From Candidatus Odyssella sp. (lineage in GTDB: Bacteria > Pseudomonadota > Alphaproteobacteria > Bin65): 40,980 bases of DNA. Position 1 is the stretch's first letter, and each line of letters opens with the position of its first letter. The notes beneath the pieces were generated by a model. It made no database searches. It saw only the letters and a program-made list of their open reading frames with translations, and had not been told where the DNA came from. Below are positions 2,642-37,410 of the stretch, one piece after another. The stretch is from NCBI GenBank assembly GCA_016792765.1, contig JAEULD010000369.1, positions 1 to 40,980 of the forward strand. Reading direction: 5' to 3'. The position numbers and the translations under genes are program-made.

Positions 2642-3126
2642 GGCGCACCTCCGCCGCGCATCCGCTGCCCGGCCGCGAGCGCGGCTTCGATGACTTTGGC
2701 GTAGCCCGTGCAGCGGCAGACGTTGCCCTCGATCGCGCGTCGCAACTCCGCCTCGCCCGCCGCGGGATTGCGGTCGAGCGCGTGGCGGATTTGCATCACC
2801 ATGCCGGCGGTGCAGTAGCCGCACTGCACCGCGCCGGTATCGACGAAAGCCTGCTGCACCGGATCGAGCCCGCGCTCGCCCCACAGCCCTTCGACCGTGC
2901 GCACCGTGCGGCCCGCCAGGTCCACCGCGGGCATGAGGCACGAATTGCGCGACAGTCCGTCGACGATGATCGTGCAGGCGCCGCACTCGCCCTCGCCGCA
3001 GACGAGCTTGGCGCCGGCGAGATCGAACCGCTCTCTCAGCACGGTCAGCGCGCTGGCGGTGGCGGGAACGGCGGCCGAAACCGCGCGCCCGTTGAGCGTG
3101 AAGGCAATCTCAACTTCGAGCGACAC
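2638..3126 (-). CDS. Molybdenum hydroxylase, [2Fe-2S] small subunit
   Basis: A 162-residue protein with the two iron-sulphur domains of the family. The plant-ferredoxin-type cluster is C43, C48, C51 and C63 (CGEGECGAC plus a later C), and the second cluster is C102, C105, C137 and C139 (QCGYCTAGM and VCRCTGY). It passes electrons from the molybdenum site to the FAD subunit. The start is GTG at 3126: a strong GAGGAG ribosome site sits just before it, while reading further upstream in the same frame gives only low-complexity Arg/Ser-rich translation that is a shadow of the FAD-subunit gene. It overlaps the end of the FAD-subunit gene by 17 bases and the large-subunit start by 4, so the three subunits are probably translationally coupled. 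Confidence 0.93.
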
Positions 3127-4000
3127 GGCCGAGCTCCTCTTCGAGAAACGCCGCGGCGAGATGACGGCGATACCAGGCCGAACCGCGCACGTCGTCGATC
3201 GGCGCGATCTCGCGGCCGAGGCTTTCCAGCGCGCGGGCGATGGCGGCGTCGTCGAGCGCGACGCCTTCGATCTCGGCTTCGGTGCGCGGACAGCGAATCG
3301 GCGTGGGCGCGACGGCGCCCGCCGCAATCCGGACCGAGGTGAGCCGCCGCCCCTCGCGCCGCCCCGCGATGCACAGGGCGACGCGCGCGATCTCGAGCGC
3401 CGGCCGCGGCCCCGATTTCTGGAACGCGCCGAACGAGCCGGCCGCGGGCCGGTCGAACGACACCGCGGTGATGAGTTCGCCGGGCAGCGCGCGCGTCTTG
3501 CCCGGCCCGGCGAAGAACGCCGCCAGCGGCAGGCGGCGCCGGTCGATCCTGTTCTCGTGCCAGCGCGCAAGCTCCACCTCGGCGTCGAGACAGAGCAGCG
3601 GCAGCACCATGTCGGCCGCCGGCGACGCGTTCGCGATGTTGCCGCCCACCGTCGCGGCGTTGCGGATCTGCACGCTGGCGAAGCGGTCGGCGGTCGCCGG
3701 CAGCACCGGAGCGGCGCGGAGGAGCAGCGGGCTTTCGAGGATTTCGGTCATCGTCGCGAGTGCGCCGATGCGGATGCGGCCGCCCTCTTCCGCGATGCCG
3801 CCGAGCGCGGCCACGCGCCGGATGTTCACGAGGCGCCGCCCGTAGGCGCGCTTGCCGAGATCCTTCTGGATCCAGAGATCGGTTCCGCCGGCCACCGGCG
3901 TTCCTGCGCCATCGGCAAGCGCGCGTACCGCCGCGTCGAGCGAAACGGCGTCGACGTACGCGTCGATCTCGAGCGGTTTCAGCTCCTGGGCCAACGGCAC
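3110..4000 (-). CDS. Molybdenum hydroxylase, FAD-binding medium subunit
   Basis: A 296-residue CoxM-type FAD subunit. FAD-binding segments are PVAGGTDLWIQ (about 35-45) and ATVGGNIANASPAAD (about 116-130), as in xanthine dehydrogenase family medium subunits. It lacks the cysteine-rich insert that carries a [4Fe-4S] cluster in the 4-hydroxybenzoyl-CoA reductase beta subunit, which argues for an ordinary hydroxylase direction, though not decisively. The start is a GTG at 4000, chosen because GGGAGG lies six bases upstream; the mutase large-subunit stop is 15 bases further upstream. Gene order medium-small-large is common in bacterial Mo-hydroxylase operons. Confidence 0.92.
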   Translation of the reverse strand: MPLAQELKPLEIDAYVDAVSLDAAVRALADGAGTPVAGGTDLWIQKDLGKRAYGRRLVNIRRVAALGGIAEEGGRIRIGALATMTEILESPLLLRAAPVLPATADRFASVQIRNAATVGGNIANASPAADMVLPLLCLDAEVELARWHENRIDRRRLPLAAFFAGPGKTRALPGELITAVSFDRPAAGSFGAFQKSGPRPALEIARVALCIAGRREGRRLTSVRIAAGAVAPTPIRCPRTEAEIEGVALDDAAIARALESLGREIAPIDDVRGSAWYRRHLAAAFLEEELGRVARS

Positions 4001-12104: not shown

Positions 12105-12998
12105 GTGACCTTCAGGGTCGGCACGTACTCGGTGACGCGCATCGAAGAGATGCTGACCCCCGGCTTCCTGCCGGCATTCCTGTTTCCGCAGTTCGACCCG
12201 TCGGTGCTCGACGAGCAGGCGCAGCTCCGCTCCGCGCGCTTCTGGCATGCCGAGAGCGGGAAGGTGATGTCGAGCATGCATTCGTGGCTGATCCGCGACG
12301 GGCGCCACACGATTCTGATCGACACCGGCTGCGGCAACGCCAAGACGCGGGCGCTGCCCGTCTTCCAGCGCTTCCACCGGCTCGACCTCCCCTATCTCGA
12401 CCGCCTCGCGGCGGCGGGCGTGAAGCCCGACGACGTGACGCTGGTCATCTGCACCCATCTCCACATCGATCACGTCGGCTGGAACACGGTGCTGGAGGCG
12501 GGCGCGTGGCGGCCGACCTTCCCGAACGCGCGCTACGTTTTCGGCAAGCGCGAGTTCGACCATTGGCGCTCTCCCGCCGGTCTTGCCGGCTTCCCGGAGA
12601 ACGGACCGGTGATCGAAGACAGCGTGATGCCCGTGGTCGAGGCGGGCCAGGCCGAGTTCGTCGGCGACACGGCGCGCATCCTCGACGGGTTGGAGCTGGA
12701 GCCCGCGCCCGGCCATACCGCGGGCCAGCTGATGGTGAAGCTCACCTCGGGACGCGACACGGCGGTGTTCCCGGGCGACACGCTGCACCAGCCGATGCAG
12801 GTCTATCGCCCCGAATGGAACAGCCGTTTCTGCGAGCAGGCCGAAACCGCGCGCGCGACGCGCCGGCGCGTGCTCGACTACTGCGCCGACCGCGGCGCGC
12901 TGCTGATGCCGGCGCATTTCGGCGCGCCGCATTGCGGGCGCATCCGCCGCTCTTCGGCGGGCTACGACTTCGCACCCGCCGACGAACTGCCGCACTGA
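12105..12998 (+). CDS. Metallo-beta-lactamase-fold hydrolase
   Basis: A 297-residue protein with the two-zinc motif THLHIDH (H118, H120, D122, H123) followed by H204 (PGHTAGQ), D225 (FPGDTLH) and a late His in MPAHFG (about 271). All metal ligands of a lactonase/glyoxalase-II-type enzyme are therefore present. Such enzymes open lactones or cleave thioesters; the substrate is not recognisable. Translation starts at GTG 12105, with GGAGGAG about nine bases upstream. It is the first gene of the plus-strand operon and ends 14 bases before the dehydratase large subunit, so it may open a cyclic precursor or release an acid from CoA for the following enzymes (inference). Confidence 0.88.
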   Translation: MTFRVGTYSVTRIEEMLTPGFLPAFLFPQFDPSVLDEQAQLRSARFWHAESGKVMSSMHSWLIRDGRHTILIDTGCGNAKTRALPVFQRFHRLDLPYLDRLAAAGVKPDDVTLVICTHLHIDHVGWNTVLEAGAWRPTFPNARYVFGKREFDHWRSPAGLAGFPENGPVIEDSVMPVVEAGQAEFVGDTARILDGLELEPAPGHTAGQLMVKLTSGRDTAVFPGDTLHQPMQVYRPEWNSRFCEQAETARATRRRVLDYCADRGALLMPAHFGAPHCGRIRRSSAGYDFAPADELPH

Positions 12999-13012
12999 GA
13001 CCGGGACCGCCG

Positions 13013-14269
13013 ATGGGCTTCACGATCACAGAGAAGATCCTCGCACGCGCGGCGGGCCTGCCGTCGGTCCGCGCCGGCGACGACGTCAAGGCGAAGCCGG
13101 ATTTCGTGCTGTCGTACGACTTCCCGGGCTACACCGACGTCGTCTTCAAGCAGATGAAGGAGGATTTCGGCATCGAGAAAGTGCCCGAGCCGGAGCGCTT
13201 CGGCATTTTCATCGATCACATGGTGCCGGCCGCCACGCCCCAGGAAGAAGAGCTGCATATCGGAACGCGGAAATGGTGCGCGGAGAACGACGTGGCGCTG
13301 TTCGAGCGCAAGGGCATCGGCCACCAGGTTTCCGCCGAGGTGGGCTTCGCCACGCCCGGCGCGTTCGTCGTGCATTTCGACGGCCATGTGAGCCAGCTCG
13401 GCACGTTCGGCACGCTGGCGATCGGCATCCGGCGCAACATCCTCGAGGCGTTCGTGCGCGAGCGCGTCTCGCTGCGCGTGCCGCAGACGACGCGCGTCGA
13501 TTTCACCGGCGCGCTCGGGCGCGGCGTGATGGCGCGCGACGTGTTCCACCACATCGTGCGCATCCTCGGCCCCGCCTCGTGCCGCTTCCAGGTGCTGGAG
13601 CTGGGCGGCCCCGGCCTCGCGTCGCTCTCGACCGAAGGCCTCCAGACCGTGACCGGCCTCGCGATGTTCACCGGCGCTGTGACCGCGATCGTCAATCCGG
13701 ATCCGGAGCGGCTTGCCTATGCGCTGCCGCGCGCGCGCAAGAAGCTCGAGCCGGTTTCGAGCGACCCCGACGCCGTGTTCGCGGCGCGGCATACGATCGA
13801 TCTTTCGGCGCTGACGCCCGTCGTCGTCGTACCGCCGAGCCCGGCGAACACGCGCGATCTCGGGGAGTTCGAGGGCCTCGAAGTGCAGGCCGGCTATCTC
13901 GGCTCCTGCGCCTCGGGGCGCCTCGAGGATCTGCGCGCCGCCGCCAAGGTGCTGGCCGGCCGCCAGGTGAAGCCCGGCTTCGCGCTCCACATCGTGCCGA
14001 CCAGCCAGCAGATCATGGCCGACGCGGCGCGCGAGGGCCTGATCGAGACGCTGGTCGCGGCGGGCGCGTTCGTCTCCTCGCCGTCCTGCGACTACTGCTT
14101 CGGGCGCATCGCGACGATGACGGCGAAGCAGCGCGCGGTCTCCACCGGCACGCTCAACGTGAAGGGCCGCATGGGCAGCCCGGATTCCGAAATCTACCTG
14201 TGCAACGCCGCGACCGTCGCCGCTTCGGCCATCGAGGGCCGGATCGCCGACCCGCGCCGCTACCTCTGA
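13013..14269 (+). CDS. Aconitase-superfamily dehydratase, large subunit (LeuC/DmdA-like)
   Basis: At 418 residues it matches archaeal-type LeuC/homoaconitase and 2,3-dimethylmalate dehydratase large subunits in length. The three [4Fe-4S] ligands are present: C299 (GSCASGRLEDL), C359 and C362 (SPSCDYC). The active-site pair D68-H69 is present, but the usual DSH motif is D123-G124-H125, losing the Ser, and the GSCTN loop reads GSCAS. The protein should add or remove water across a C=C in a hydroxy-dicarboxylic acid together with the small subunit encoded 11 bases downstream. The divergence makes leucine biosynthesis unlikely. Placement before a C-C lyase suggests dehydratase-then-lyase catabolism such as dimethylmaleate to dimethylmalate to propionate and pyruvate, by analogy with DmdAB (inference). 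Confidence 0.86.
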   Translation: MGFTITEKILARAAGLPSVRAGDDVKAKPDFVLSYDFPGYTDVVFKQMKEDFGIEKVPEPERFGIFIDHMVPAATPQEEELHIGTRKWCAENDVALFERKGIGHQVSAEVGFATPGAFVVHFDGHVSQLGTFGTLAIGIRRNILEAFVRERVSLRVPQTTRVDFTGALGRGVMARDVFHHIVRILGPASCRFQVLELGGPGLASLSTEGLQTVTGLAMFTGAVTAIVNPDPERLAYALPRARKKLEPVSSDPDAVFAARHTIDLSALTPVVVVPPSPANTRDLGEFEGLEVQAGYLGSCASGRLEDLRAAAKVLAGRQVKPGFALHIVPTSQQIMADAAREGLIETLVAAGAFVSSPSCDYCFGRIATMTAKQRAVSTGTLNVKGRMGSPDSEIYLCNAATVAASAIEGRIADPRRYL

Positions 14270-14280
14270 GGCGCAGGCCG

Positions 14281-14790
14281 ATGCTTCCGAAAAATCTTCG
14301 CGGCCGCGTGGCCTTCATCTTCGAGGAAGTCGATTTCGACGTCGATCAGATCATCGGCGTCAAGAACATCAAGATCCAGGACGTGGCCGAGCTCGCGAAG
14401 GTGGCGATGCAGGCCTACGACCCCGACTTCGCGAAGAAGGTGAAGCCCGGCGACATCCTCGTCGGCAACGTGAATTTCGGCTACGGGCATCCGCACTATC
14501 CGCCGATGCGCGCGATGCGGCACCTCGGCATTGCCGGGCTGATCGCCGAATCGTTCTCTCCCGGATACTGGCGCGGCGAGGTGAGCATGGGCTTTCCGCA
14601 GGTGCCGTGTCCGGGCATCCTGAAGCTCGTCGAGCGCTGGGACGAGGTCGAGGTCGATTGGGCGTCGGAAACCGTCCGCAACCTCGCCAAAGGCACGTCC
14701 CTGCCCTTCGAGCCGATCGCGCAGGCCGACCGCGACATGATCGCGGCCGGCGGGCTCGTTCCCTATCTCAAGAGTCAACCCGCGGCTTGA
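14281..14790 (+). CDS. Aconitase-superfamily dehydratase, small (swivel) subunit with altered active site
   Basis: A 169-residue LeuD/DmdB-like swivel domain: NLRGRVAFIF at the start, DPDFAKKVKPGDILVGNVNFG in the middle, then LGIAGLIAESF. In normal family members the central loop is G-C-G-S-S-R-E-H, carrying the catalytic Ser and the substrate-binding Arg; here it is GYGHPHYP (67-74). The preceding DxDxIIP-type segment is also changed (FDVDQIIGVKNI). The fold is clear from the flanking sequence, but the chemistry or substrate must differ from isopropylmalate or aconitate. It is cotranscribed with the large subunit (11-base gap) and with the lyase that follows 20 bases on. Confidence 0.83.
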   Translation: MLPKNLRGRVAFIFEEVDFDVDQIIGVKNIKIQDVAELAKVAMQAYDPDFAKKVKPGDILVGNVNFGYGHPHYPPMRAMRHLGIAGLIAESFSPGYWRGEVSMGFPQVPCPGILKLVERWDEVEVDWASETVRNLAKGTSLPFEPIAQADRDMIAAGGLVPYLKSQPAA

Positions 14791-14810
14791 GCGCCGCAAG
14801 GAGCACGGCC

Positions 14811-15695
14811 ATGGCCGCCGGAAAACCGATCCTTCGCCGCCTCATCAAGGAGAAAGGCACCGTGTGGGCCGCCGGCGCGTTCGACGCGCTCAGCGCGCGC
14901 ATGATCAACGACGCGGGCTTCGACGCCCTGCTGACCTCGGGCTTCGGTATCTCGTCGTCGTTCCTCGGCCAGCCCGACGCCGAGCTCTACACGATGACGG
15001 AGAACCTCACCGTCGTCCGCAACGTCGTCAACGCGGTCGATGTTCCCGTGATCGCCGACATCGACACGGCCTACGGCAACGCGATCAACGTGATGCGCAC
15101 CGTGCGCGAGTTCGAGAATGCCGGCGCCGCGGCCGTCATCATGGAGGATCAGGTGGCGCCGAAGCGCTGCCCGGCCTCGTCGAACATGATCGACATCATC
15201 TCGATCGAGGAGGCGGTGGCGAAGGTGGAGGCCGCGGTGGGCGCCCGCAGCAATCCCGAGATGCTCGTCATCGCGCGCACCGACGCCGTGAGCGAAGACG
15301 AGGCGATCCGCCGCGCCGTGGCCTACGTGAAGGCCGGCGCCGACATCATCCAGCCGATCTCGAAATGCTTCAAATCCATCGCCGGCCTCCGGAAGCTGCG
15401 CGCGGCCTGCGGCGTGCCGCTGTCGCTGCAATTGCTCGGCTGGCTCGAGCGCGATTTGAGCCGCGCCGAGATCGAGGAGGTGGCCGGCATCGCCACCTTC
15501 CCGCTCGTGCCGCTGATGAGCGCCGCCCACGCGATGCGCGAGAATTTGAAGGTGCTGGCGCGCGACAAGTCGTCGAAGGCGCTGCCGCTCGCGGTCATGG
15601 ATCACAACGCGTTTTCGGTCTTCATCGGTTTCCCGAAGATCGAGGAACTGCAGAACAGATATCTCAGATTCCTGCCGTCGAGAGCGGCGGAATAG
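14811..15695 (+). CDS. Isocitrate lyase/PEP mutase superfamily C-C lyase (dimethylmalate lyase-like)
   Basis: A 294-residue protein with the fold and metal site of the superfamily: GAFDALSARMINDAGFDAL at the N-terminus, the metal-binding DIDTAYGNA (D83, D85), E112-D113, and PKRC (K118, C120). The Cys marks a lyase that uses a catalytic thiol, as in methylisocitrate or 2,3-dimethylmalate lyase; PEP mutase has a different residue. The usual KKCGH or KRCGH is KRCPAS, so the specificity loop differs. A retro-aldol (retro-Claisen) cleavage of a 2-hydroxy dicarboxylate made by the preceding dehydratase is likely, giving pyruvate or a 2-oxo acid plus a short acid. The ATG at 14811 follows a GGAG ribosome site. 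Oxaloacetate hydrolase-type activity is the main alternative. Confidence 0.87.
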   Translation: MAAGKPILRRLIKEKGTVWAAGAFDALSARMINDAGFDALLTSGFGISSSFLGQPDAELYTMTENLTVVRNVVNAVDVPVIADIDTAYGNAINVMRTVREFENAGAAAVIMEDQVAPKRCPASSNMIDIISIEEAVAKVEAAVGARSNPEMLVIARTDAVSEDEAIRRAVAYVKAGADIIQPISKCFKSIAGLRKLRAACGVPLSLQLLGWLERDLSRAEIEEVAGIATFPLVPLMSAAHAMRENLKVLARDKSSKALPLAVMDHNAFSVFIGFPKIEELQNRYLRFLPSRAAE

Positions 15696-22480: not shown

Positions 22481-23236
22481 CTAGGCCTGCGCCAGCAACC
22501 GCCCCGCGCCCGCGAGCCGGTCGACGATCCCCGCCTTGCGGAGCGCCAGCCAGAACGTCGCCTGATTGCTGCTGACGACGGGCCTGCCCGTCTCGGCTTC
22601 GAGGCGCCCGATGACGTCGAGCGTCGCGAAATCGGTGCAGCTGATGAGCAGCGCTTCGGCCGCCGGCGTCATCACGCCGGCGGCGAATGCGTGCACCTCG
22701 CTCGCCGGAACGCGCGCGATGTTGCGGTATTCGGCGACGCCGCCGGCGCCGTAACCCATGCCGCGCAGGGACACCACCTCGAAGCCGTGCGCGTGCAGGA
22801 ACTCGGCTTCGTGGCGGTTGAGCGCGTCGTGGTACGGCGTCGCGACCGCGACGCGCTTCGCCCCGAGCGCGCGCAGCGCTTCCACCAGCGCCTGCGCGGT
22901 GGTCACGCAGGGAGATCCCGTTTCGCGCTCCATGTAATCCGGAAGCTCGGCCGCGGGAACCGTGAGCGAGCCGGCCGTGCAGCCATAGGCGATCACGCTC
23001 ACGCCGGCCTGGGCGAGATCCAGCGCGTGGCGCTTGACGTCTTCGAGCAGCGCGCGCTTTCCCGCGGCGCTCCGGATGTCGGTGTGCAGTTTCATCCGCG
23101 TCGCGTGGATCGTGACCCCGGCCGGCGCCAGCCGGTTCCACTCCGCCTCGTTCGCGGTGTTCGTCGGCGGAACGATGACGCCGAGCTTGGCGCGCGCGCC
23201 ATATACGGTAGGATGGCTCATCCGATCGACGATCAT
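22481..23236 (-). CDS. Maleate isomerase/Asp-Glu racemase-superfamily protein, both catalytic Cys present
   Basis: A 251-residue protein whose N-terminus LGVIVPPTNTANEAE matches the VPSSNT-x-x-E start of maleate cis-trans isomerase and arylmalonate decarboxylase. The two cysteines of the superfamily are at C86 (IAYGCTAGSL) and C200 (LLISCTDFATL), so it could catalyse cis-trans isomerisation or racemisation by the two-thiol mechanism. The ATG at 23236 is preferred over 23221 because a GGTGGAA stretch lies upstream; both remain possible. It is divergent from the flavin monooxygenase gene across 62 bases, an arrangement compatible with a shared regulatory region, though I see no clear promoter there. 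Confidence 0.85.
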   Translation of the reverse strand: MIVDRMSHPTVYGARAKLGVIVPPTNTANEAEWNRLAPAGVTIHATRMKLHTDIRSAAGKRALLEDVKRHALDLAQAGVSVIAYGCTAGSLTVPAAELPDYMERETGSPCVTTAQALVEALRALGAKRVAVATPYHDALNRHEAEFLHAHGFEVVSLRGMGYGAGGVAEYRNIARVPASEVHAFAAGVMTPAAEALLISCTDFATLDVIGRLEAETGRPVVSSNQATFWLALRKAGIVDRLAGAGRLLAQA

Positions 23237-23298: not shown

Positions 23299-24507
23299 AT
23301 GCAGGCGAAAGACGCACAAGGGGTCTTGATCGCCGGCGCCGGCCCGTGCGGCATGGTTGCGGCGGCCGCGCTGGCGAGCCAGGGCATTCCTGTCACCGTG
23401 TTCGAGGCGCAGAGCGAGCTTCCGATCGACCTGCGCGCCTCGACCTTCCATCCGCCGACGCTCGACCTGCTCGACCGGTTCCCCGGCGTGACCGCGGACC
23501 TGATCCGGCAGGGCTTGATCGCGCGCACCTGGCAATACCGCGACCGGATCGCCGGCCCGGTCGCCACCTGGGATCTCGGCCTGCTGTCCGCGGACACCAA
23601 TCACCCCTACCGCCTGCAGGCGGAGCAGTGGCGGCTCACGCGCATCTTCGCGGAGCGGCTTCGCACCTGGCCGCAGGCGCGGGTGCTGTTCGGCCACGAA
23701 GTCACCGGCGCGAGCCAGAGCGCCGACGAGGCGCGGCTGAACGTGCGCACGCCCGAGGGCGAGCGCGTGTTTTCCGGAGCGTGGGCCATCGGCGCCGATG
23801 GGGCGAACAGCGCGGTCCGGCGCAGCCTCGGGATCCCGTTCGACGGCATCACGCTGCCGGAGCTCTACCTCACCTTATCCACGACGTTCGATTTCGCGCG
23901 CCACTTGCCTGAACTCACCTACGTGAACTACGTCGCCGATCCCGAGGAATGGCTCGTGCTGCTGCGCGTCTCGGCCGCGTGGCGCGTGCTGTTCCCGACC
24001 CGGCCCGGCGAAAGCCGCGACGAGGTGCTGGCGGATGCGAACGTCCAGCGCCGGCTGCGCGCCGTGGCGGCGAGCGACACGCCCTACGATGTCGTGCACA
24101 AGACGCTCTATCACGTGCACGAGCGGGTCGCGCCGGACTATCGGCGCGGCCGCGTCCTGCTCGCCGGCGACGCCGCGCACATCAACAATCCGCTCGGCGG
24201 CATGGGCATGAACGGCGGCATCCACGACGCGTTCAATCTCGCCGAGAAGCTCGGCCAGGTCTGGCGCGGCGAGGCCGGCCCGGCGCTGCTCGACCGCTAT
24301 ACGCGCCAGCGCCGGAAGGTCGCGATCGATTTCGTCCAGGCCAACGCGCTTCGGAACCGCGAGGCCCTGCGCGAAACCGACCCCGCGCTGCGCAAGCAAA
24401 GGCAGGACGACATGCGCCGCATGGCCGGCGACCCGGTCCAGGCGCGCCAGTTCCTGTTGCGCTCGTCGATGATCGCCGCGCTGCGCGAGGCGGAAAGCGT
24501 CGCGTGA
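23299..24507 (+). CDS. FAD-dependent class A monooxygenase (aromatic hydroxylase type)
   Basis: A 402-residue flavoprotein monooxygenase. Motifs in order: GAGPCG dinucleotide-binding loop (about 13-18), IGADGANSAVRR (the DG motif, about 162-173) and LLAGDAAHINNPLGGMGMNGG (GD motif, about 290-311). These define single-component NAD(P)H-dependent hydroxylases such as 3-(3-hydroxyphenyl)propionate, 6-hydroxynicotinate or salicylate hydroxylase. The substrate cannot be told. It ends 39 bases before the convergent end of the second ABC system, where I see only a weak GC-rich repeat. Confidence 0.9.
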   Translation: MQAKDAQGVLIAGAGPCGMVAAAALASQGIPVTVFEAQSELPIDLRASTFHPPTLDLLDRFPGVTADLIRQGLIARTWQYRDRIAGPVATWDLGLLSADTNHPYRLQAEQWRLTRIFAERLRTWPQARVLFGHEVTGASQSADEARLNVRTPEGERVFSGAWAIGADGANSAVRRSLGIPFDGITLPELYLTLSTTFDFARHLPELTYVNYVADPEEWLVLLRVSAAWRVLFPTRPGESRDEVLADANVQRRLRAVAASDTPYDVVHKTLYHVHERVAPDYRRGRVLLAGDAAHINNPLGGMGMNGGIHDAFNLAEKLGQVWRGEAGPALLDRYTRQRRKVAIDFVQANALRNREALRETDPALRKQRQDDMRRMAGDPVQARQFLLRSSMIAALREAESVA

Positions 24508-29074: not shown

Positions 29075-29821
29075 TCAATGTTCCAGCAGCAGCGAGCCGA
29101 AACCCTGGATACGGTCGTTGATGCCGTTCTGGCGCAACGCCCACCAGTAGGTGGCCGTGTTGATGGCGATCACCGGCTTGTCGAGCCAGAACTCCGCGAC
29201 GCCGGCGAGGCGCGCCATCGCGAGATTGGTGCCGACCTGGACGATGGCTTCGACCGAGCCGTCGTTCACCTCGTTGATGGCGTCGCGCAACTCTTTCTCC
29301 GAGACGTGCGCGATCAGCATCGGGCTCTTGCACTTCAGGCCTTTGACCTGGACGACCTCGAACCCGCAGTCGGTGAAGAACTTGCGCACGTTCTCGTCGC
29401 CGATCGGCATGTAGGGCGTGATCACGCTGATACGCTTGACGTCGCCATAGCGGCGGAGCGCGGCCTGGCATGCATCCGAGCCCATCGCGACCGAGACGCC
29501 GGCGCGCTCCTCGCAGCGCTGCTGGAACACCTTCGACCCCGCGAGGCCGTCCCAGAACGTCTCGGCCGACATGCCCATGATGACCTTCTGCGGCCGGCAG
29601 GTCATGACGCGATCGATGGCGAACATCAGCTCCTTGCGGATGTTGTGCATCAGCAGGTCGAAATCGGCATTGTCCTTGATCGGATCGTCCGGGATGTGGA
29701 TGCGCGAAAAATGGTTCGTCACCCCGTAGGGGCGCATCGCGTCGAACTCGGGTTGCACCGAGGTGTTCGTGGACGGCGCGATGACGCCGAACTTCATCCG
29801 AAAGCCGAGGGAGTCGACCAT
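29075..29821 (-). CDS. Maleate isomerase/arylmalonate decarboxylase-like protein lacking both catalytic Cys
   Basis: A 248-residue member of the Asp/Glu racemase superfamily, recognised by FGVIAPSTNTSVQPE at the N-terminus and AINTATYWWALRQNGI near the C-terminus. Aligned by eye with the relative encoded at 22481-23236, the first catalytic Cys falls in IMGMSAETFW (81-90; Met/Ser instead of Cys) and the second in IVQVGTNLAMARL (Gly instead of Cys). It therefore cannot use the two-thiol mechanism, and the arylmalonate decarboxylase single Cys is missing too. The ATG at 29821 is chosen because AGGA lies six bases upstream; a TTG two codons earlier would be too close. It sits 63 bases after the amidohydrolase gene, on the same strand. 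Confidence 0.83.
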   Translation of the reverse strand: MVDSLGFRMKFGVIAPSTNTSVQPEFDAMRPYGVTNHFSRIHIPDDPIKDNADFDLLMHNIRKELMFAIDRVMTCRPQKVIMGMSAETFWDGLAGSKVFQQRCEERAGVSVAMGSDACQAALRRYGDVKRISVITPYMPIGDENVRKFFTDCGFEVVQVKGLKCKSPMLIAHVSEKELRDAINEVNDGSVEAIVQVGTNLAMARLAGVAEFWLDKPVIAINTATYWWALRQNGINDRIQGFGSLLLEH

Positions 29822-29884
29822 GTCCAATCCTACGCTTCGCTGTTCTGCCCGGTGCGCCGCCGGCCGGCAGGATCGCCGCCCGCG

Positions 29885-30532
29885 CTAGGCTCCGCCGCGC
29901 TTGCGTTCCAATTCCTGCAAGTACGCGAGCGCTTCGTCAATGCGGACGACGTCGCCATACTTGGCGTTGATGTCGAACAGATTGGCCTCGTGCGGGCCCG
30001 AATGCCGGTCCGCCACGCATTCCCGCGGCACGATCACGCGAAAGCCGTGCTGCATCGCGTCGACGGCGCTGGCGCGCACGCACCCGCTGGTCGACACGCC
30101 CGCGAGAAGCACGCTGTCGATCCCGCGCGCGGTCAGCGTGCTGGCCAGCGACGTGCCGAAAAACGCGCTGGCATAGTTCTTGGTCACGACCACGTCGTCC
30201 GGGCCGGGCCGCAGATCCTTCGCGAACTCGGCCAGCGGCTCGCCCGGCACCATGCGCCGGAGCGCCGGCACCTTCTGCACGAAAATGCCGCCGTCGCTGC
30301 CATCGCGCGAATAGAGCACGCGCGTGAAAAGGACGGGCACGGCGGCACTCTTGGCCGCGCGATAGAGCCGCGCCGTCTGCCGCACGGCCTCGGCACAGTC
30401 CGGTGCGTGGAGCGGCGACGAGGGCGAGAGGTAGGCTTCGATGAAATCGACGATCAGCAGGGCCGGGCGCTTGCCGAACCCCAGTTTCCCGTCGAAGACG
30501 CCGCTGTAGTTGCGCGCCAAGCTGTCATCCAT
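29885..30532 (-). CDS. Isochorismatase-superfamily cysteine hydrolase (maleamate amidase/N-carbamoylsarcosine amidase-like)
   Basis: A 215-residue hydrolase with the triad D29 (LLIVDF), K118 (TKNYASAFFGT) and C151 (GVSTSGCVRASAVDA), plus DRHSGPHEANLFDINAKYG near the C-terminus. The K-x-x-ASAFFGT and HEANLFDIxAKYG stretches are what one sees in maleamate amidohydrolase (NicF) and N-carbamoylsarcosine amidase rather than in nicotinamidase. It should cleave an amide to acid plus ammonia. With a maleate-isomerase-like gene next door this resembles the end of nicotinate degradation, but no 2,5-dihydroxypyridine dioxygenase is visible, so the pathway is not the known one (inference). Confidence 0.87.
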   Translation of the reverse strand: MDDSLARNYSGVFDGKLGFGKRPALLIVDFIEAYLSPSSPLHAPDCAEAVRQTARLYRAAKSAAVPVLFTRVLYSRDGSDGGIFVQKVPALRRMVPGEPLAEFAKDLRPGPDDVVVTKNYASAFFGTSLASTLTARGIDSVLLAGVSTSGCVRASAVDAMQHGFRVIVPRECVADRHSGPHEANLFDINAKYGDVVRIDEALAYLQELERKRGGA

Positions 30533-30683: not shown

Positions 30684-31988
30684 TCATTTCGACATCGTGC
30701 TCGGCAGCCAGGTGGCAAGCGCGGGAACCGCCAGCAGGATCGCGATGCGCACGGCGTCGGCCGAGACGAAAGGCAGGATACCGCGCGCCACCGTCTGCAG
30801 CGGCAGGTTCGGCACCGTCGCGCTGAGCACGAACAGGTTCATGCCGACGGGCGGCGTGATCGTCCCGATCTCCGCCAGAGTCACGAGTACGACGCCGAAC
30901 CAGATCGGATCGAAGCCGAGCGCCTTGACCAGCGGGAAGACGGATCCCAACGTCAGCAGGATCATCGACAGGCTGTCCATGAGACAGCCGAGGATGACGT
31001 AGAACACGCACAGCAGGACCATGACCCAGTATCGGTTCCATCCGAGCGCGTCGATCCACCGGATCAGCGCCTGGGTGAGGCCCGTGGCGTCGATGAAGTA
31101 GTTGAAGATGCCCGCGCCCACGAGGATGAAGAAGATCATGCCCGTGGTGAGGGCCGTTTCGACGAACGACGTGCGCAGCACGCGCAGATTGAAGCGGCGC
31201 GTGACGACTGCGAGCGCGAGGGCGCCGAATGCGCCGACGCTGGCCGCCTCGGTCGGCGTGAACAGGCCGACATAGAGCCCGCCGAGCACGATTCCGAACA
31301 GCACGACGACGCCCCAGACTTCGCGGACGCTGCGCCACCGCTCGCCCCAGTTCTGGCGCGGCCCTTTGGGGCCATAGGCGGGGCGCCGCCACGTCACCCA
31401 GCCCACGGCGCTCATGTAGAGCAGCGTGCCGACGATTCCCGGCAGGATGCCGGCGATGAACAGCGCGCCGATCGAAGTTTCGGTCATCAGCCCGTAGACG
31501 ACGAACAAGATGCTCGGCGGGATCATGATCCCGAGCGTGCCGCCGGCGGCGACCGAGGCGGCGGCGAGGCGGTCGTCGTATCCCAGGCGGCGCATTTCGG
31601 GCATCGCGATGCGGCCGATCGTGGCGGTGGTCGCGATGCTGGAGCCGCACACCGCGCCGAAGACCGCCGAGGCTCCGATCGTCGACACGGCGAGGCCGCC
31701 GCGCCAATGGCCGACGAACGAGGCGACCGTGTTGTAGAGGCTGCGCGACAGCCCGCCCTGGGCCGCGAATACGCCCATCATCACGAACAGCGGCACCACC
31801 GAAAGACCGACCGGCGAGATCGCCTCGAACACCGACCGACCGAGCACGAAGCCGAGCGTGGAGAAGCCGTAGATGATGCCGTAGCCGAGCGCGCCGACGA
31901 TGCCCATGGCGATCGCGACCGGAACCCGGAACGCGAGGAGCGCGACGACGAACGCGAAACCGATCGCTCCGATGACGGGATCGCTCAT
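30684..31988 (-). CDS. dctM: TRAP transporter large permease, DctM family
   Basis: A 434-residue membrane protein with the DctM family features: PLFVMMGVFAAQGGLS in the N-terminal third, a GSSIATTATIG loop, GGTLGIMIPPSI and a C-terminal ITPPVGMNLFVLSA. It is the ion-driven channel of a tripartite periplasmic importer. Its ATG overlaps the dctQ stop (ATGA). The in-frame sequence continuing upstream through dctQ and dctP is a reading-frame shadow, not a fusion. A 7-base-pair GC stem (30654-30672) lies downstream without a T run. Confidence 0.94.
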   Translation of the reverse strand: MSDPVIGAIGFAFVVALLAFRVPVAIAMGIVGALGYGIIYGFSTLGFVLGRSVFEAISPVGLSVVPLFVMMGVFAAQGGLSRSLYNTVASFVGHWRGGLAVSTIGASAVFGAVCGSSIATTATIGRIAMPEMRRLGYDDRLAAASVAAGGTLGIMIPPSILFVVYGLMTETSIGALFIAGILPGIVGTLLYMSAVGWVTWRRPAYGPKGPRQNWGERWRSVREVWGVVVLFGIVLGGLYVGLFTPTEAASVGAFGALALAVVTRRFNLRVLRTSFVETALTTGMIFFILVGAGIFNYFIDATGLTQALIRWIDALGWNRYWVMVLLCVFYVILGCLMDSLSMILLTLGSVFPLVKALGFDPIWFGVVLVTLAEIGTITPPVGMNLFVLSATVPNLPLQTVARGILPFVSADAVRIAILLAVPALATWLPSTMSK

Positions 31989-32545
31989 GGGCGGTCCGCG
32001 GCCCGCGTCGAGGAACCGCCGAGGACCGCCGCGACGGCGTGCCGGGCCGCCTGCGCCAGGCACGCAATGGCCGACGCCGCCATCGCCAGCAGCAACGGAA
32101 CCCAATACCAGAGTATCGGAATGTGCAGCGTCGGGGAGATGTCGCCTTTCGCGATCTGGGCGCGCGCCTGACCGAAAGCGTAGTAGGTCAGCGCGCACAC
32201 GAAGGCGGCGCTCATCAAGGCCACGACGGCTTTCAGGAGGGCGAGCGGCCTGGGCCGAAGCGGATCGGTGAGAAACTCCACCGCGATGTGGCCGTCGCGC
32301 CGGAACACCAGAGGCCACGTCAGGCAGATGCAACTCATCACGAAGAGCTGGCCGATCTCGCTCAGGCCCAGGATCGAGGAGCCGACGGCCTTCCGGCCGA
32401 CGATCTCGACGATCTGCAAGACCATGAAGAGCGAGATCAGCACCATCCCGACATGGGCCAGCCCCTCGCAAATGGCGTCGGCGACGCGCCGCGCGCGGCC
32501 GTGCCGCCCCGCCTCGCCCAGGCCGCTTCCGTCGCCGCCCGCCAT
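31985..32545 (-). CDS. dctQ: TRAP transporter small permease, DctQ family
   Basis: A 186-residue protein with four predicted membrane helices and the family's central GLSEIGQLFVMSCICLTWPL and FRRDGHIAVEFL segments (R-x-x-x-H-I-x-V/I). It bridges the binding protein and DctM. It starts nine bases after the dctP stop, so the order is P-Q-M on the minus strand. Confidence 0.9.
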   Translation of the reverse strand: MAGGDGSGLGEAGRHGRARRVADAICEGLAHVGMVLISLFMVLQIVEIVGRKAVGSSILGLSEIGQLFVMSCICLTWPLVFRRDGHIAVEFLTDPLRPRPLALLKAVVALMSAAFVCALTYYAFGQARAQIAKGDISPTLHIPILWYWVPLLLAMAASAIACLAQAARHAVAAVLGGSSTRAADRP

Positions 32546-32554
32546 CGCCGCGCT

Positions 32555-33574
32555 CTACTTGTCGTATTGCGCCGCGCGCTTCGTCATTTCGTCGTAGATC
32601 GCCCGCGCGTTCGGCACGCCCTGCTTCTCGATCGCGGCAAGCTGCGCTTCGATCACCGGCTTGAGCCGCGTCCGCAGCTCCGCCAGGTCCGCATCCGACG
32701 CCACGGTCTCGCCGACGCCCTTTTCCTTGGCCGAGGTCCGCGCCAGGGCATCGGCCTTGTCCCAGGCGACCGGAAAGCTCTCGACCCACTTGGCCGTCGT
32801 CTCGTCGATCGCTTTCCGCACGTCGGCGGGAAGGCTCTCGAACTTCTTCTCGTTCATCACGATGTGGAAGCAGGTGAGGGTCAGCCTGGCCGCGAAGTAG
32901 CTCTTGATGATGTTCTCGAGCCGGAAGCCGCGCACGCCGTCCCAGCCGGTCGTGGCTCCGTCGAGCGTCCCTTTCTCGAGGCTCTCGTAGATCTGGCCCG
33001 GGCCCATCGTGACCGGCACCGCGCCGACATGCTGGAGGACGGCCTGGACGTTGTTGTTGGGGCTGCGGATGCGGAGGCCCTTGAGGTCGTCGAGCTTCTG
33101 CGCCGTCTTCTCGCGCAACGCGAATCCCTGGGCATTCGTGCAGTTGAGATTGAGCAGCTTGTACCCCTTGAAGTCCGCGGCGAGGTGGCTGCCGAGCATC
33201 GAGGCGAAGGTTCTCGCCGCGCCCTTGGCCGTCGTCGCCACCAGCGGCAGCTCCATGATGCTCGTGCGCGGGTAGCGGCCGGCCGGCACCCCGTTCAGGC
33301 CCCAGCCGATATCCATGACGCCGGCCGAAACCTGATCGGCCTGGTTCGCGACGTTGCCGAACGGCGAATTGCCGGCGAACGCACGAACCTCGACCGCGCC
33401 TTTCGTCCGCTCGCTGAGCTCCTTCGCCCACGGGCCGTAGCCGTCGGTCAGGAACCAGTGGGTCGGCGGAACGAACGTGCTTGCCTTGAGTTCGATCTTC
33501 CCCTGCGCGGCCGCCACGGATGCCGCGAGCGTCGTCGCCGCGACGGCGGCGATAGTCTTGAACGTGCCCGTCAT
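32555..33574 (-). CDS. dctP: TRAP transporter substrate-binding protein, DctP family
   Basis: A 339-residue periplasmic protein with a Sec-type signal (TIAAVAATTLAASVAAAQ) and the mature start IELKASTFVPPTHW. The family's carboxylate-binding Arg is in DLKGLRIRSP. DctP proteins of this type bind organic acids. Two adjacent ATGs (33577, 33574) are possible; the second has better spacing from GGAGG. It starts 53 bases after the diiron-protein gene, and both genes share a GAGGGAGG leader. Confidence 0.92.
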   Translation of the reverse strand: MTGTFKTIAAVAATTLAASVAAAQGKIELKASTFVPPTHWFLTDGYGPWAKELSERTKGAVEVRAFAGNSPFGNVANQADQVSAGVMDIGWGLNGVPAGRYPRTSIMELPLVATTAKGAARTFASMLGSHLAADFKGYKLLNLNCTNAQGFALREKTAQKLDDLKGLRIRSPNNNVQAVLQHVGAVPVTMGPGQIYESLEKGTLDGATTGWDGVRGFRLENIIKSYFAARLTLTCFHIVMNEKKFESLPADVRKAIDETTAKWVESFPVAWDKADALARTSAKEKGVGETVASDADLAELRTRLKPVIEAQLAAIEKQGVPNARAIYDEMTKRAAQYDK

Positions 33575-33627
33575 CATGTCCTCCCTCGATTGCAGGCCGG
33601 ATGTCTTGCGAATGGCCGGCGCGCCGA

Positions 33628-34431
33628 TCACGCCGCGAACCCGGCCTTGGCGTAGTTGAAGGCGATCGGTTTCGACTTGCCCTGCTTGAGCAGCTCGATC
33701 TCGGCGTCCGGCAGCGGATTCCCGAACTGCGCGTTGCGCATGTGCAGTCTGGCGCGCATCTGCTCGACGGCGAGATCCTTCAGCAGGGTCCAGTCGGCTT
33801 GCGAGAGGTCTTCGCGGTCGAGACCGGCGATGCCTTTCAACATGTGGCTGAACTCGTCATCGTAGACGGACCGGCAGGCGCGCGCGACGACCCGGTCGGC
33901 AACCGACGCGCCCTTGAGCTTGGCGCCTTCCGAGAAGAGGGCGCAATAGCCGCCCTCGGTCAGCCGGCTGGCGCGTATACCGATGTCGCCGTGCGCCCGC
34001 ATGTGGCCCGCGCGCAGCTCGCCCAGCGCCTCGTTCTCGGGCCAGCTTTTCACGTCGCGCAGCATCATCGGATTGATGGGCGGGTCGCCCTTGCCGCGAA
34101 TGGCGTCGTAGGCGTCGGCGAAGGCGCAATAATGCGCGAATTCGGCATGCAAGCCTTCGGTCATGTCGAGGATCTCGTGGCGATCGACGCCCTGGTCGAT
34201 CTTCTCGGCGAGGTTCAGCATCTTGCGAAGCGGCCCGATGAACAGGCCGGGATTGGCCACGTCGAAACCGTCCCAGAACTCCTTCCGGCACTGCCGCGAC
34301 AGCCAGAGCAGGTCGCTTTGGCGCGACCGCTTCGGAGACTTGAAATAGGCGCGCACGACCCTGGCTTCGGCCGCCCAGAAGGGCGCCAGCGCCTCGATCA
34401 AGCGCTTGAGATTCCTGCTCGCTCTGGCCAT
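33628..34431 (-). CDS. Unrecognised ferritin-like diiron protein
   Basis: A 267-residue soluble helical protein that I do not recognise by name. It has two ExxH motifs, E97-F-A-H100 (HAEFAHYCAFADAY) and E193-F-S-H196 (VYDDEFSHMLKGI), about 96 residues apart, with E159 (LTEGGYCALFSEG) between them and candidates such as E51 or E86 before. This spacing is that of the ferritin-like diiron-carboxylate fold (Glu, ExxH, Glu, ExxH on four helices), which includes oxygen-activating oxidases, desaturases and N-oxygenases. No signal peptide. The ATG at 34431 is preferred over the GTG just before it because GGAGG is six bases upstream. It lies between an alpha/beta hydrolase and TRAP genes, so it may be a catabolic oxidase acting on the imported compound (inference). 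Confidence 0.7.
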   Translation of the reverse strand: MARASRNLKRLIEALAPFWAAEARVVRAYFKSPKRSRQSDLLWLSRQCRKEFWDGFDVANPGLFIGPLRKMLNLAEKIDQGVDRHEILDMTEGLHAEFAHYCAFADAYDAIRGKGDPPINPMMLRDVKSWPENEALGELRAGHMRAHGDIGIRASRLTEGGYCALFSEGAKLKGASVADRVVARACRSVYDDEFSHMLKGIAGLDREDLSQADWTLLKDLAVEQMRARLHMRNAQFGNPLPDAEIELLKQGKSKPIAFNYAKAGFAA

Positions 34432-34560: not shown

Positions 34561-35385
34561 CTAGCTCGGCAATCCGTCGAGGAAGGCCTCGATCTCGCGA
34601 TTGAAGGCCTCCGGCTGCTCCAGCAACGCGAAGCGGCGCGCTCCCGCAATCCAGGCCTGACGGAAGTTCGGCAGATGCGCAAGCCGCTCGGGCTTGTCGG
34701 GGGACGGATCGTCGGTGCCGCAAATGCCGAGGATCGGACACCGGACCCGATCCATCTCCCGCACCAGATTGGGAATGGACGTATAGAACTCCGCGCTCTG
34801 AACGTAGTGCTGGCGCGGATGGCTGGCGAACATGCGCGCCACCTTGGCGCGGACCGCGGGATCGGTCGGGAAGATGGGCATCAGTTGCTCGTAGTTTTCG
34901 TCGAGGTAGCGCGCGAGCCCGTCGACGCCTTCGGCCTCCATCTTCCTGCCCATCAGGAGATGCAGGTCCGCGAACGAGAGCCGGTGCTTCTTGCGCCGCT
35001 CTTCGAGCAGCGGATAGCCGTCGAGTTCGTACCACGAAGAAAGCACGAGCGCGCGCACGCGCTCGGGGTGCAGCAGCGCGTAGGTCGCCGCGACGGTCGT
35101 GCTCATGGCGACGGCGACGATGGCGACGCGCTGAATGCCGAGATGGTCGAGCAGCGCGACGAGGTCCTGCGTCTGATTCCAGAGCGAATAGCCGTAGGGC
35201 GGGCAGCCGCTCTTGCCGTGCCCGCGCCGATAATAGGAGACGCACCGGAACCGCCGCGCGAAGTATGGCAGCTGGTGCTCGAACATCTCGATGCCGTGCG
35301 TCTCGCCGGGAATGAACAGGACGCACGGACCTTCGCCCTGCGTCTCGTAGTGTATGTCGCAGTTGTTCACCGTTGCCTTCGGCAT
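34561..35385 (-). CDS. Alpha/beta hydrolase-fold protein with degenerate catalytic triad
   Basis: A 274-residue single-domain alpha/beta hydrolase: PGETHG oxyanion region, YYRRGHGKSG, a nucleophile-elbow segment AVAMSTT with S95, an acid at D225/D226 (CGTDDPS), and a C-terminal EQPEAFNREIEAFL. The elbow lacks both glycines of G-x-S-x-G, and the catalytic His, expected before EQPEAF as in GHF-x-x-LEQPEAF, is R251. Ordinary serine-hydrolase chemistry is therefore doubtful; it may be a cofactor-free dioxygenase/lyase-like or non-catalytic relative. It starts 34 bases after the gntR stop and probably shares its transcript. Confidence 0.84.
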   Translation of the reverse strand: MPKATVNNCDIHYETQGEGPCVLFIPGETHGIEMFEHQLPYFARRFRCVSYYRRGHGKSGCPPYGYSLWNQTQDLVALLDHLGIQRVAIVAVAMSTTVAATYALLHPERVRALVLSSWYELDGYPLLEERRKKHRLSFADLHLLMGRKMEAEGVDGLARYLDENYEQLMPIFPTDPAVRAKVARMFASHPRQHYVQSAEFYTSIPNLVREMDRVRCPILGICGTDDPSPDKPERLAHLPNFRQAWIAGARRFALLEQPEAFNREIEAFLDGLPS

Positions 35386-35419: not shown

Positions 35420-36160
35420 TCATGCGTGCAACCGGATCAGCCGCAAGGCCGGCAGATCGCGGCTCGAATCGCGGTTGCGCAATACGAGCCGCAGATACTT
35501 CCACGACGATCGCGCATGCTCGAGGGTCAGCGCCTGAGCGCGCGTCCCCTCGCGGTTGCGGATCGCGTCGAGGATGTCGTGGTGCTGGGCATGGCCGGCG
35601 ACGAGGAACTTGTGCAGCTCGGGCACTTGATCGACGGGGGCCTCGACGAAGGTCTGCAGGCCGGCGAACGGCAGGTTCAGCACGTTGCGCAGCGCGCGGT
35701 TGACCATCGCGCTCTTGGCGCAGCCGAGCAGGAGCTCGTGGAACCGGTCGTTGAGGCGGATGAAGTCGCCGATCGAGGCGGCCGAGGCGGCGAGTGCCGG
35801 CATGACCTTGTCGAGATCGCGCAGGCACACCTCCATCTCCATCAGCGTCGCGGGCGAGACGCCGCGCTCGGCCGCGAAGCGCGCCGACAGGCCCTCCAGC
35901 GTTCCGCGCACCTCGATCGCGTCGAAGACGTCGGCCTCGGTGAACTCGCTGACGACGAAGCCGCCCGAGGGCAGCTCCTCGAGCAAGCCTTCCTGCTTCA
36001 GCTGGATCAGGGCCGAGCGCGCGGGCGTGCGCGAAACGCCGAGGCGATCGGCGATCGACTGTTCCGAGATCCGTTCGCCCGGCTGAAGCTGGCCGCTCGT
36101 GATCAGGCCCCGCAGACCGAACGTGGCCTTCAGCGTTTGCGATGGCTGCGCTTCGTGCAT
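35420..36160 (-). CDS. GntR-family (FCD domain) transcriptional regulator
   Basis: A 246-residue regulator: winged helix with LITSGQLQPGERISEQSIADRLGVSRTPARSALIQL (about residues 18-55; the GVSRTP motif is the recognition helix), then an all-helical FCD ligand domain with the usual metal-binding pattern D-x-x-FH, H-x-x-x-H and a late H. FCD regulators respond to organic acids. The ATG at 36160 leaves a normal short N-terminal tail; a longer start at 36205 would extend into the divergent promoter and cover a GTATAC site. It is probably the regulator of both the downstream minus-strand run and the divergent decarboxylase operon. Confidence 0.9.
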   Translation of the reverse strand: MHEAQPSQTLKATFGLRGLITSGQLQPGERISEQSIADRLGVSRTPARSALIQLKQEGLLEELPSGGFVVSEFTEADVFDAIEVRGTLEGLSARFAAERGVSPATLMEMEVCLRDLDKVMPALAASAASIGDFIRLNDRFHELLLGCAKSAMVNRALRNVLNLPFAGLQTFVEAPVDQVPELHKFLVAGHAQHHDILDAIRNREGTRAQALTLEHARSSWKYLRLVLRNRDSSRDLPALRLIRLHA

Positions 36161-36176
36161 GCACGACACTTTATCA

Positions 36177-36182
36177 GTATAC
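36177..36182. promoter_or_regulatory. Candidate GntR operator half, site 1
   Basis: GTATAC in the context ATCAGTATACCGAG, 17 bases upstream of the gntR start codon. FCD-type GntR regulators often bind palindromes with a GTATAC core. Its partner, site 2 at 36260-36267, is 84 bases away (start of core to start of core), close to eight helical turns. Assignment is by position and symmetry only. Confidence 0.35.
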
Positions 36183-36259
36183 CGAGATGAAATGAAACTA
36201 TTCATTCGGGGTCGAAACTGTCGATTTTATTGCTTGTCGTGCAATTGGCTTCCCTGTTA

Positions 36260-36267
36260 CGTATACG
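36260..36267. promoter_or_regulatory. Candidate GntR operator, site 2 (CGTATACG palindrome)
   Basis: A perfect 8-base palindrome, CGTATACG, 26 bases before the start codon of the decarboxylase alpha subunit and inside the AT-richer divergent gap. A repressor bound here would cover the likely promoter of the plus-strand operon; no convincing -35/-10 pair could be fixed, so the promoter itself is not called. Confidence 0.35.
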
Positions 36268-36292
36268 ATGGGAATTCGAAGCGGGTGACACA

Positions 36293-36787
36293 ATGCCGTC
36301 GGCCGAAAGCGCAAACGCGCTTCTGAACGCCTTGCGATATGCCGGGATCAACATGGTGGCCTCGTTGCCGGACGGCGCGATGGTCGCGGTCGTCAATGCC
36401 CTCGAAAAGAGCAATGACATCCTTCACGTGCCGCTCACGCGCGAGGAGGAAGGCACCGGCGTTTGCGCCGGCGGATACCTCGCCGGCAAGCGCTGCGCGC
36501 TTCTGATTCAAAACGCGGGGCTGCTCAATTCGGTCAACGGCCTCACCACGACGGCCCTCCAGTTCGAGATTCCGATGCTGCTGCTCGTGCTGTATGCGGG
36601 CGCCTACAACGACATGGCCTTTCCGAAGCTCGGGCAGGTCACCGAGCCCGTCCTCGACGCGCTCGGCATACGCCACTATCTGCTCGACGATCTCGCGCAG
36701 GCGAAGAAGATCATCAGCGGCGCGCTCGTCCAGGCCTACAATTTCAAGAAGCCGGTGGCCGTTCTCATCCACAAGTCGGTGCTGTAG
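36293..36787 (+). CDS. Thiamine-diphosphate-dependent decarboxylase, alpha (N-terminal-type) subunit, sulfopyruvate/phosphonopyruvate decarboxylase-like
   Basis: A 164-residue protein equivalent to the pyrimidine-binding domain of ThDP decarboxylases: LTREEEGTGVCAGGYLAGKR (E51-E53 contain the Glu that activates the cofactor) and QNAGLLNSVNGLTT. The split alpha/beta arrangement matches ComDE sulfopyruvate decarboxylase. The substrate would be a 2-oxo acid with a second acidic group (3-sulfo-, 3-phosphono- or carboxy-pyruvate type). The ATG at 36293 follows GGGTGA; an earlier start would add sequence from the regulatory gap. It is divergent from gntR, two bases before the beta subunit start. 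Confidence 0.86.
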   Translation: MPSAESANALLNALRYAGINMVASLPDGAMVAVVNALEKSNDILHVPLTREEEGTGVCAGGYLAGKRCALLIQNAGLLNSVNGLTTTALQFEIPMLLLVLYAGAYNDMAFPKLGQVTEPVLDALGIRHYLLDDLAQAKKIISGALVQAYNFKKPVAVLIHKSVL

Positions 36788-36789
36788 CC

Positions 36790-37410
36790 ATGTTCACGCG
36801 GGTGGAAGGCCTGAAACGCGTCCTCGATCTCTTCGACGGCGTTCCGGTCATGGTGACGGTGGGCGCCTGTTGGGTCGAGTGGGATGCGCTGCGCCCCAGC
36901 GACGGCAATTTCGCGCTCAAGACGCTCGGCAGCGGCTCCTCCGTGGGGCTGGGCGTGGCGCTCGCGCTGCCGAAGCGGAAGGTCGTGATCCTCGACGGCG
37001 ACGGCGCGGTTCTCATGAACATGAACGGCGTCGCCACCGTCGGGCAAATGCAGCCCAAGAACCTGATCCACATCGTCTTCGACAACAAGGTCTACGAGGC
37101 GTCGGGCTGCATCCGGACGGCAACGTCGTTCAACGCCGATCTCGTCGCCGTCGCCAAGGGCCTGGGCATCAAGAGCGCCCACCGCGTGGCGACGCCCGAG
37201 GCATTCGAGAGCCAGGTGCGCGCGGCCTTCGCCTCGGACGGCCCGCATTTCATCGTCGCCGAGACCAAGCTCAGCGAGGGCGATTCGACCTTCGCCTACG
37301 CGCGGCTCGAGGAAACCGACAACAAGCACCGCTTCATGCGCTTCCTCGAGAAGGTCGAGGGGCGCAAGCTGCGCGAGGACGCCATCGACGTGAAGACCTC
37401 GCTGCGCTGA
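36790..37410 (+). CDS. Thiamine-diphosphate-dependent decarboxylase, beta (C-terminal-type) subunit
   Basis: A 206-residue pyrophosphate-binding half with the ThDP/Mg motif G70-D-G72 ... N99 (GDGAVLMNMNG to FDN, 26 residues between) and LGSGSSVGLGVALALP before it. It forms the active site at the interface with the alpha subunit. It starts two bases after the alpha stop and ends 11 bases before the FAD oxidoreductase gene. Relative to ComE the C-terminus is some 20 residues longer, with an acidic/basic tail. Aldehyde product from a 2-oxo acid could feed the following oxidoreductase (inference). Confidence 0.86.
   Translation: MFTRVEGLKRVLDLFDGVPVMVTVGACWVEWDALRPSDGNFALKTLGSGSSVGLGVALALPKRKVVILDGDGAVLMNMNGVATVGQMQPKNLIHIVFDNKVYEASGCIRTATSFNADLVAVAKGLGIKSAHRVATPEAFESQVRAAFASDGPHFIVAETKLSEGDSTFAYARLEETDNKHRFMRFLEKVEGRKLREDAIDVKTSLR

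Follow-up and report, generated by a model that had tools for sequence, protein, structure and literature searches.

P0001, a 267-residue protein encoded in a 40,980-nucleotide stretch of DNA from Candidatus Odyssella sp. (contig JAEULD010000369.1; the whole stretch analyzed is hereafter called the window), is probably an O2-using enzyme of organic acid degradation, because the residues that never vary among its relatives form a complete putative two-iron site on a predicted helical bundle. The more specific assignment, to the O2-dependent nonheme di-metal (most likely di-iron) oxidases or oxygenases built on a heme-oxygenase-like helical bundle, we regard as about an even bet. With this assignment, a gene family that lacks a Pfam or NCBIfam entry and is present in all 11 searched genera of one alphaproteobacterial order receives a label.

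Reading frame and operon

The P0001 reading frame (complement of 33628-34431) begins with an ATG at 34431 and comprises 267 codons plus a stop. Translation could also start from a GTG in the preceding codon, and a good ribosome-binding site, GGGAGG, precedes the ATG by about 7 nt. Numbering from the ATG places the two ExxH motifs at E97-x-x-H100 and E193-x-x-H196, exactly as in the first-pass annotation of this DNA, and the Glu that the annotation saw between them is E159; the protein has one further ExxH, at E92, which its relatives do not conserve. Of composition-preserving shuffles of P0001, 6.8% contain at least two ExxH motifs, such that the motif count alone is weak evidence.

In transcription order, the genes run from a GntR regulator through an alpha/beta hydrolase, P0001, DctP, DctQ, DctM, an amidase, and an Amdase-type protein to Liv-type ABC genes (Table 1). 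P0001 does, as initially described, lie between a hydrolase (upstream) and the TRAP importer genes (downstream), all on the minus strand. For the hydrolase, the best NCBIfam match is PcaD at 97 bits, under the cutoff of that model, and a search of the PDB found no close solved relative; a deformylase or lactonase role is possible. By a small margin, the amidase resembles N-carbamoylsarcosine amidase more than NicF (among its PDB matches, we take 3ot4/3uao and 4l07 to be NicF and maleamate amidase).

Table 1. P0001 and neighboring genes, with positions in the window
Feature	Position	Strand	Basis
GntR/FCD-type regulator, upstream of the run	35420..36205	-	Pfam GntR + FCD
Alpha/beta hydrolase, first of the codirectional run	34561..35385	-	Pfam Abhydrolase_1 5.6e-19
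P0001, uncharacterized putative di-metal family, 267 aa	33628..34431	-	ORF and translation; invariance in 57 relatives; AF2 model
TRAP substrate-binding DctP	32555..33586	-	Pfam DctP 1.9e-39
TRAP small membrane subunit, DctQ-like	31985..32545	-	Position and sequence
TRAP large membrane subunit, DctM-like	30684..31988	-	Position and sequence
Isochorismatase-superfamily amidase	29885..30532	-	PDB 26st 3e-49, 3ot4/3uao 3e-42, 4l07 1.7e-38
Amdase/maleate-isomerase superfamily protein	29075..29827	-	Pfam Amdase 2.4e-12; PDB maleate cis-trans isomerase 4fq5 1.4e-6

An unlabeled family and its distribution

The statement that P0001 resembles no nameable family holds: it has no match in Pfam, NCBIfam, or PHROGs at an E value of ≤1, and searches of these collections and of the PDB with P0001 and with alignments of 14 and 47 sequences returned nothing credible. 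When the 47 members were scanned one by one, there were scattered weak matches but no family common to them; single members matched Ferritin (E = 0.059), FA_desaturase_2 (0.12), and DUF455 (0.12) in isolation.

Relatives were detected on five public MAG contigs, in 6 of the 385 sampled genomes of the window's class, and in 4/11 genomes of its order. In another order of this class, 22 of 27 genomes, from all 11 genera, carry the family, with up to 5 copies each, and among 398 genomes sampled across the phylum, the window's own was the sole one to match. No relatives were found in plasmid, phage, and viral collections. In the genome from which the window derives, P0001 is accompanied by another copy, 51% identical, and by a C-terminal fragment that lies at the edge of a contig. 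Members fall into two main groups, one of about 265 aa that includes P0001 and one of about 245 aa, with roughly 28% identity between them.

Invariant residues and the putative metal site

Across 57 full-length members, E22, K50, E51, R84, E97, H100, R140, E159, G160, E193, H196, R228, M231, and R232 never vary, and they include the candidate ligands of P0001, namely, E51, E97, H100, E159, E193, and H196 (and E22). A metal site predicts that its ligands are retained as the remainder of the protein diverges, and the whole E/ExxH/E/ExxH set is indeed kept at about 26% identity elsewhere, the lower limit of a separate 47-sequence alignment. The five invariant basic residues, in turn, suggest an anionic ligand.

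AlphaFold2, run on P0001 together with five relatives, returned an all-helical model (pLDDT of 87.2, pTM of 0.84) with helices at residues 6-30, 37-52, 65-76, 84-111, 131-160, 177-206, and 211-235. The candidate ligands are borne by 6-30/37-52, 84-111, 131-160, and 177-206. A second target, L004 (43% identical), modeled from the same six sequences, was likewise all-helical (pLDDT of 85.1), and in the models both ExxH motifs occupy the middle of long helices. The helical di-metal carboxylate site postulated in the first-pass annotation is thus well supported by two confident models and an invariant ligand set. From conservation and the models, we infer that the family binds two metals through a ferritin-type set of two His and four or five carboxylates, just as we infer the convergence of these ligands in space and, for P0001, the metal identity, O2 use, and substrate.

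Heme-oxygenase-like or ferritin-like scaffold

Foldseek searches of the PDB with both models placed heme-oxygenase-like proteins first (TenA, AetD, PolF, and UndA; probability of 1.00, TMq of 0.47 to 0.59, and a best E value of 0.011, with none below 0.01) and ferritin-like proteins (PaaA, R2, and Dps) lower, at TMq values of 0.36 to 0.44. The original description of P0001 as ferritin-like thus fits its ligand pattern (E, ExxH, E, ExxH) but probably not its fold; the scaffold, as modeled, is probably heme-oxygenase-like.

Among the best Foldseek neighbors of the family models are the heme-oxygenase-like di-metal oxidases/oxygenases (HDOs; UndA, SznF, AetD, PolF, and CADD; PF14518), the definition of which requires three His plus three or four carboxylates (PMC13108848). 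A profile alignment that needed no adjustment of columns sets P0001 residues E97, H100, E159, E193, and H196 on HDO ligand columns E79, H86, E140, D175, and H178, occupied in 29 PF14518 sequences by Glu (28/29), His (25/28), Glu (24/29), Asp (24/28), and His (27/29), such that the E/H, E, and D(E)/H columns of core helices 1 to 3 coincide with those of the family. The alignment score of 33.3 exceeds that of all 120 column and block shuffles (maximum of 23.7). The Glu and His of HDO core helix 1 and the Glu of core helix 2 therefore have counterparts in E97, H100, and E159, which are invariant in the 57 members. The third HDO His, the first His of the core-helix-3 HxxxD/ExxH (present in 28/28 of the HDO set), has no such counterpart: position 189 of the P0001 family is Ile in 35/57 and Val in 22/57, leaving two His instead of the three of HDOs. 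Because this defining residue was looked for and is replaced in all members, we do not file the family among the HDOs. It further differs from them in adding the invariant E22, E51, and Arg/Lys set, and none of the 47 members matched PF14518 in the HMM search (E value of ≤1). The extra N-terminal-side E51 recalls the auxiliary Glu of SznF (3H/4C).

A survey of 150 HDO groups assigns about 85% to E-H-X-H-D/E-H, about 4% to an Asn variant, and one group to the FlcD type, leaving about 9% unassigned, and describes no two-His set with Ile or Val at the first core-3 position (PMC11363339). Neither that survey nor a review describes a ferritin-type 2-His/4-carboxylate motif on a heme-oxygenase-like fold (PMC11363339, PMC13108848). 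TenA/thiaminase II and PqqC, metal-free proteins of the same fold, gave the highest TM-scores (TMt of 0.69 with 2rd3) but lack the ligand set, and TenA has no sequence similarity to the family: TENA_THI-4 was unmatched in the Pfam scan of members and scored 0.2% in hhalign.

The main alternative is that P0001 is a divergent ferritin-like di-iron protein, a four-helix bundle related to DUF455, and that the ranking of heme-oxygenase-like folds reflects the limits of shallow models; we hold this to be possible but doubtful. The ligand order E...ExxH...E...ExxH, with two His and four carboxylates, is the classic one of DUF455 (PF04305), rubrerythrin, acyl-ACP desaturase, and PaaA, and P0001 reproduces it on long predicted helices (E51 or E22, E97xxH100, E159, and E193xxH196). 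DUF455 is also the best hhalign match of the family (81%, versus 45% for HDO), with a score of 44 against a shuffle maximum of 28.5 and with the first-helix Glu and both ExxH motifs in register, and the isolated weak HMM matches noted above point in the same direction. E159, however, is out of register with the third-helix Glu of DUF455; the profiles of rubrerythrin, AurF, and PaaAC give only 0.2 to 4%; no scanned member matched PF05138 (PaaA/PaaC; hhalign of 0.2%); and both models fit the heme-oxygenase-like fold better. Nor did the HMM search against ferritin-like families yield a significant ferritin-clan match, the best single-member E value being that to Ferritin. Since neither a family match nor fold support was obtained, we do not file the family as ferritin-like.

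In cross-controls, HDO (PF14518) and PaaA_PaaC (PF05138) score 89% against each other in hhalign despite reportedly different folds, which could represent convergent ligand spacing or an old relationship. We rejected hhalign as a judge of fold on this account: its scores cross fold borders and support a di-iron-type helical site, not a particular fold.

Proposed function and gene neighborhoods

On the preferred reading of P0001 as a di-metal oxidase or oxygenase with a heme-oxygenase-like scaffold, E97 and H100 on one long helix, E159 at the end of a second, and E193 and H196 on a third would serve as metal ligands, and E51 (perhaps E22), contributed by the N-terminal helices, would complete the site in place of the HDO His. 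The role of the invariant Arg/Lys set is probably to hold an anionic (carboxylated) substrate in place next to the metals. P0001 would then oxidize an imported organic acid, the product of which may be processed by the neighboring hydrolase, amidase, and isomerase-like proteins.

Gene neighborhoods of relatives bear on the suggestion, made at the outset, of an oxygen-using catabolic enzyme. Family loci elsewhere adjoin PaaK-like and other CoA ligases, Rieske oxygenases, Mo-hydroxylases, TauD-type dioxygenases, and amidohydrolases, and some adjoin proteins that we take to resemble 4,5-dihydroxyphthalate decarboxylase. Oxygenases and Mo-hydroxylases lie near 28/58 family loci versus 5/27 control stretches (P = 0.009, although related loci are not independent), an enrichment that stems mainly from one syntenic subgroup; in the window's own subgroup, they occur near 11 of 33 loci (P = 0.25). 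Because the loci are related and the enrichment is weak in the window's own group, we consider the catabolic role plausible, not demonstrated.

A narrower version of this role, to which we assign a low probability, would have P0001 be the oxygenase, ring-opening or hydroxylating, that is missing from an N-heteroaromatic (pyridine/nicotinate-type) pathway, filling the slot of NicX/Hpo beside neighbors equivalent to NicD/Nfo, NicF/Ami, and NicE/Iso. In Pseudomonas, the 2,5-dihydroxypyridine dioxygenase Hpo, an Fe(II) enzyme, is followed by the alpha/beta hydrolase Nfo, Ami, and Iso, and these four enzymes carry out the final steps in the degradation of nicotine and nicotinate (PMC6122326). The window offers candidates for the last three nicotinate steps beside P0001, since the hydrolase, the NicF-like amidase, and the maleate-isomerase-like protein are all present; by analogy, and speculatively as regards substrate, the operon resembles a lower nicotinate pathway that lacks its ring-cleaving enzyme. 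Elsewhere in the window lie genes for a Mo-hydroxylase large subunit (320-2641) and a flavin monooxygenase (23299-24504), and Mo-hydroxylase genes flank 12/58 family loci versus 2/27 controls. Against this, the affinity of the amidase to N-carbamoylsarcosine amidase, the weak isomerase match, and the generic nature of the hydrolase count, as does the fact that L028 (63% identical) and other near relatives adjoin CoA ligases or PaaA-like genes instead. NicX/Hpo itself, although a possible functional equivalent given the deformylase-, amidase-, and isomerase-like genes nearby, binds a single Fe(II) through His257, His310, and Asp312 (PMC6122326). A motif common to it and P0001 would not be expected.

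A metal-binding but noncatabolic protein (an iron sensor, a stress-protective HDO-like protein, or an accessory to an adjoining oxygenase) is similarly improbable: neighbors do vary widely across loci, one subgroup is found amid genes of central carbon metabolism (PGK, GAPDH, and transketolase, named from sequence), and an HDO-domain stress protein, DtpC, is reported in Acinetobacter (PMC13232832), but the invariant positive residues beyond the ligands suggest a bound anionic substrate, P0001 lies inside a transporter-amidase operon, and the family is multicopy, with as many as five per genome.

Going beyond the assignment of P0001 as a di-metal oxidase or oxygenase, the family could constitute a di-iron class in which a ferritin-type 2-His/4-carboxylate site on a heme-oxygenase-like fold opens the rings of (N-hetero)aromatic acids oxidatively or hydroxylates these acids as part of catabolism in Alphaproteobacteria, each genome having several paralogues; taken as a whole, this proposal is unlikely, and we offer it tentatively. 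The roughly one dozen characterized HDOs act mainly on fatty and amino acid substrates in small-molecule biosynthesis, and nearly all have three His (PMC13108848, PMC11363339). If real, a family that acts in catabolism and places two His on the HDO scaffold would broaden the picture of HDOs in ligand rules and biology alike and would allow a direct test of whether ferritin-type and heme-oxygenase-type di-iron sites converge.

Other gene associations

The closest relative (L028:10957-13863) adjoins a divergent PaaA-like di-iron oxygenase (PF05138, 4.4e-14) and a 2Fe-2S/FAD/NAD reductase, and this locus thus shows two unrelated di-iron-type proteins side by side. We considered the reductase as a partner of the family, but it more likely serves the adjoining PaaA-like oxygenase. 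In the shorter group (L031, L032, L033, L198-L210, and L218), an SdhA-like flavoprotein and a 117-aa SdhB-like 2Fe-2S protein, possibly a redox pair, are divergent neighbors across genera. The same loci also keep PGK, GAPDH, and transketolase, so the conserved order is not evidence of a functional link, and we did not retain the flavoprotein, the 2Fe-2S protein, and the Rieske and Mo-hydroxylase proteins as an electron-transfer partner set, for which order alone is insufficient.

Several other gene groups were noted within the window. A second, separate Amdase/maleate-isomerase superfamily gene is located at 22484-23236. At 320-4000, a three-subunit Mo-hydroxylase of the xanthine dehydrogenase type, which could catalyze an upper step of an N-heterocycle pathway, adjoins mutase-like and hydantoinase A/B-like genes. 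A metallo-hydrolase-like gene, a LeuC/LeuD-like dehydratase pair, and an ICL/PEP-mutase lyase (PEP_mutase, 2.3e-43) stand in a row at 12105-15692, an order tentatively reminiscent of the dehydratase and lyase that act on 2,3-dimethylmalate in nicotinate fermentation. At 36230-37410, and divergent from the operon regulator, is a two-subunit TPP decarboxylase resembling sulfopyruvate/phosphonopyruvate decarboxylases (TIGR03845, 125 bits, under the cutoff of 148).
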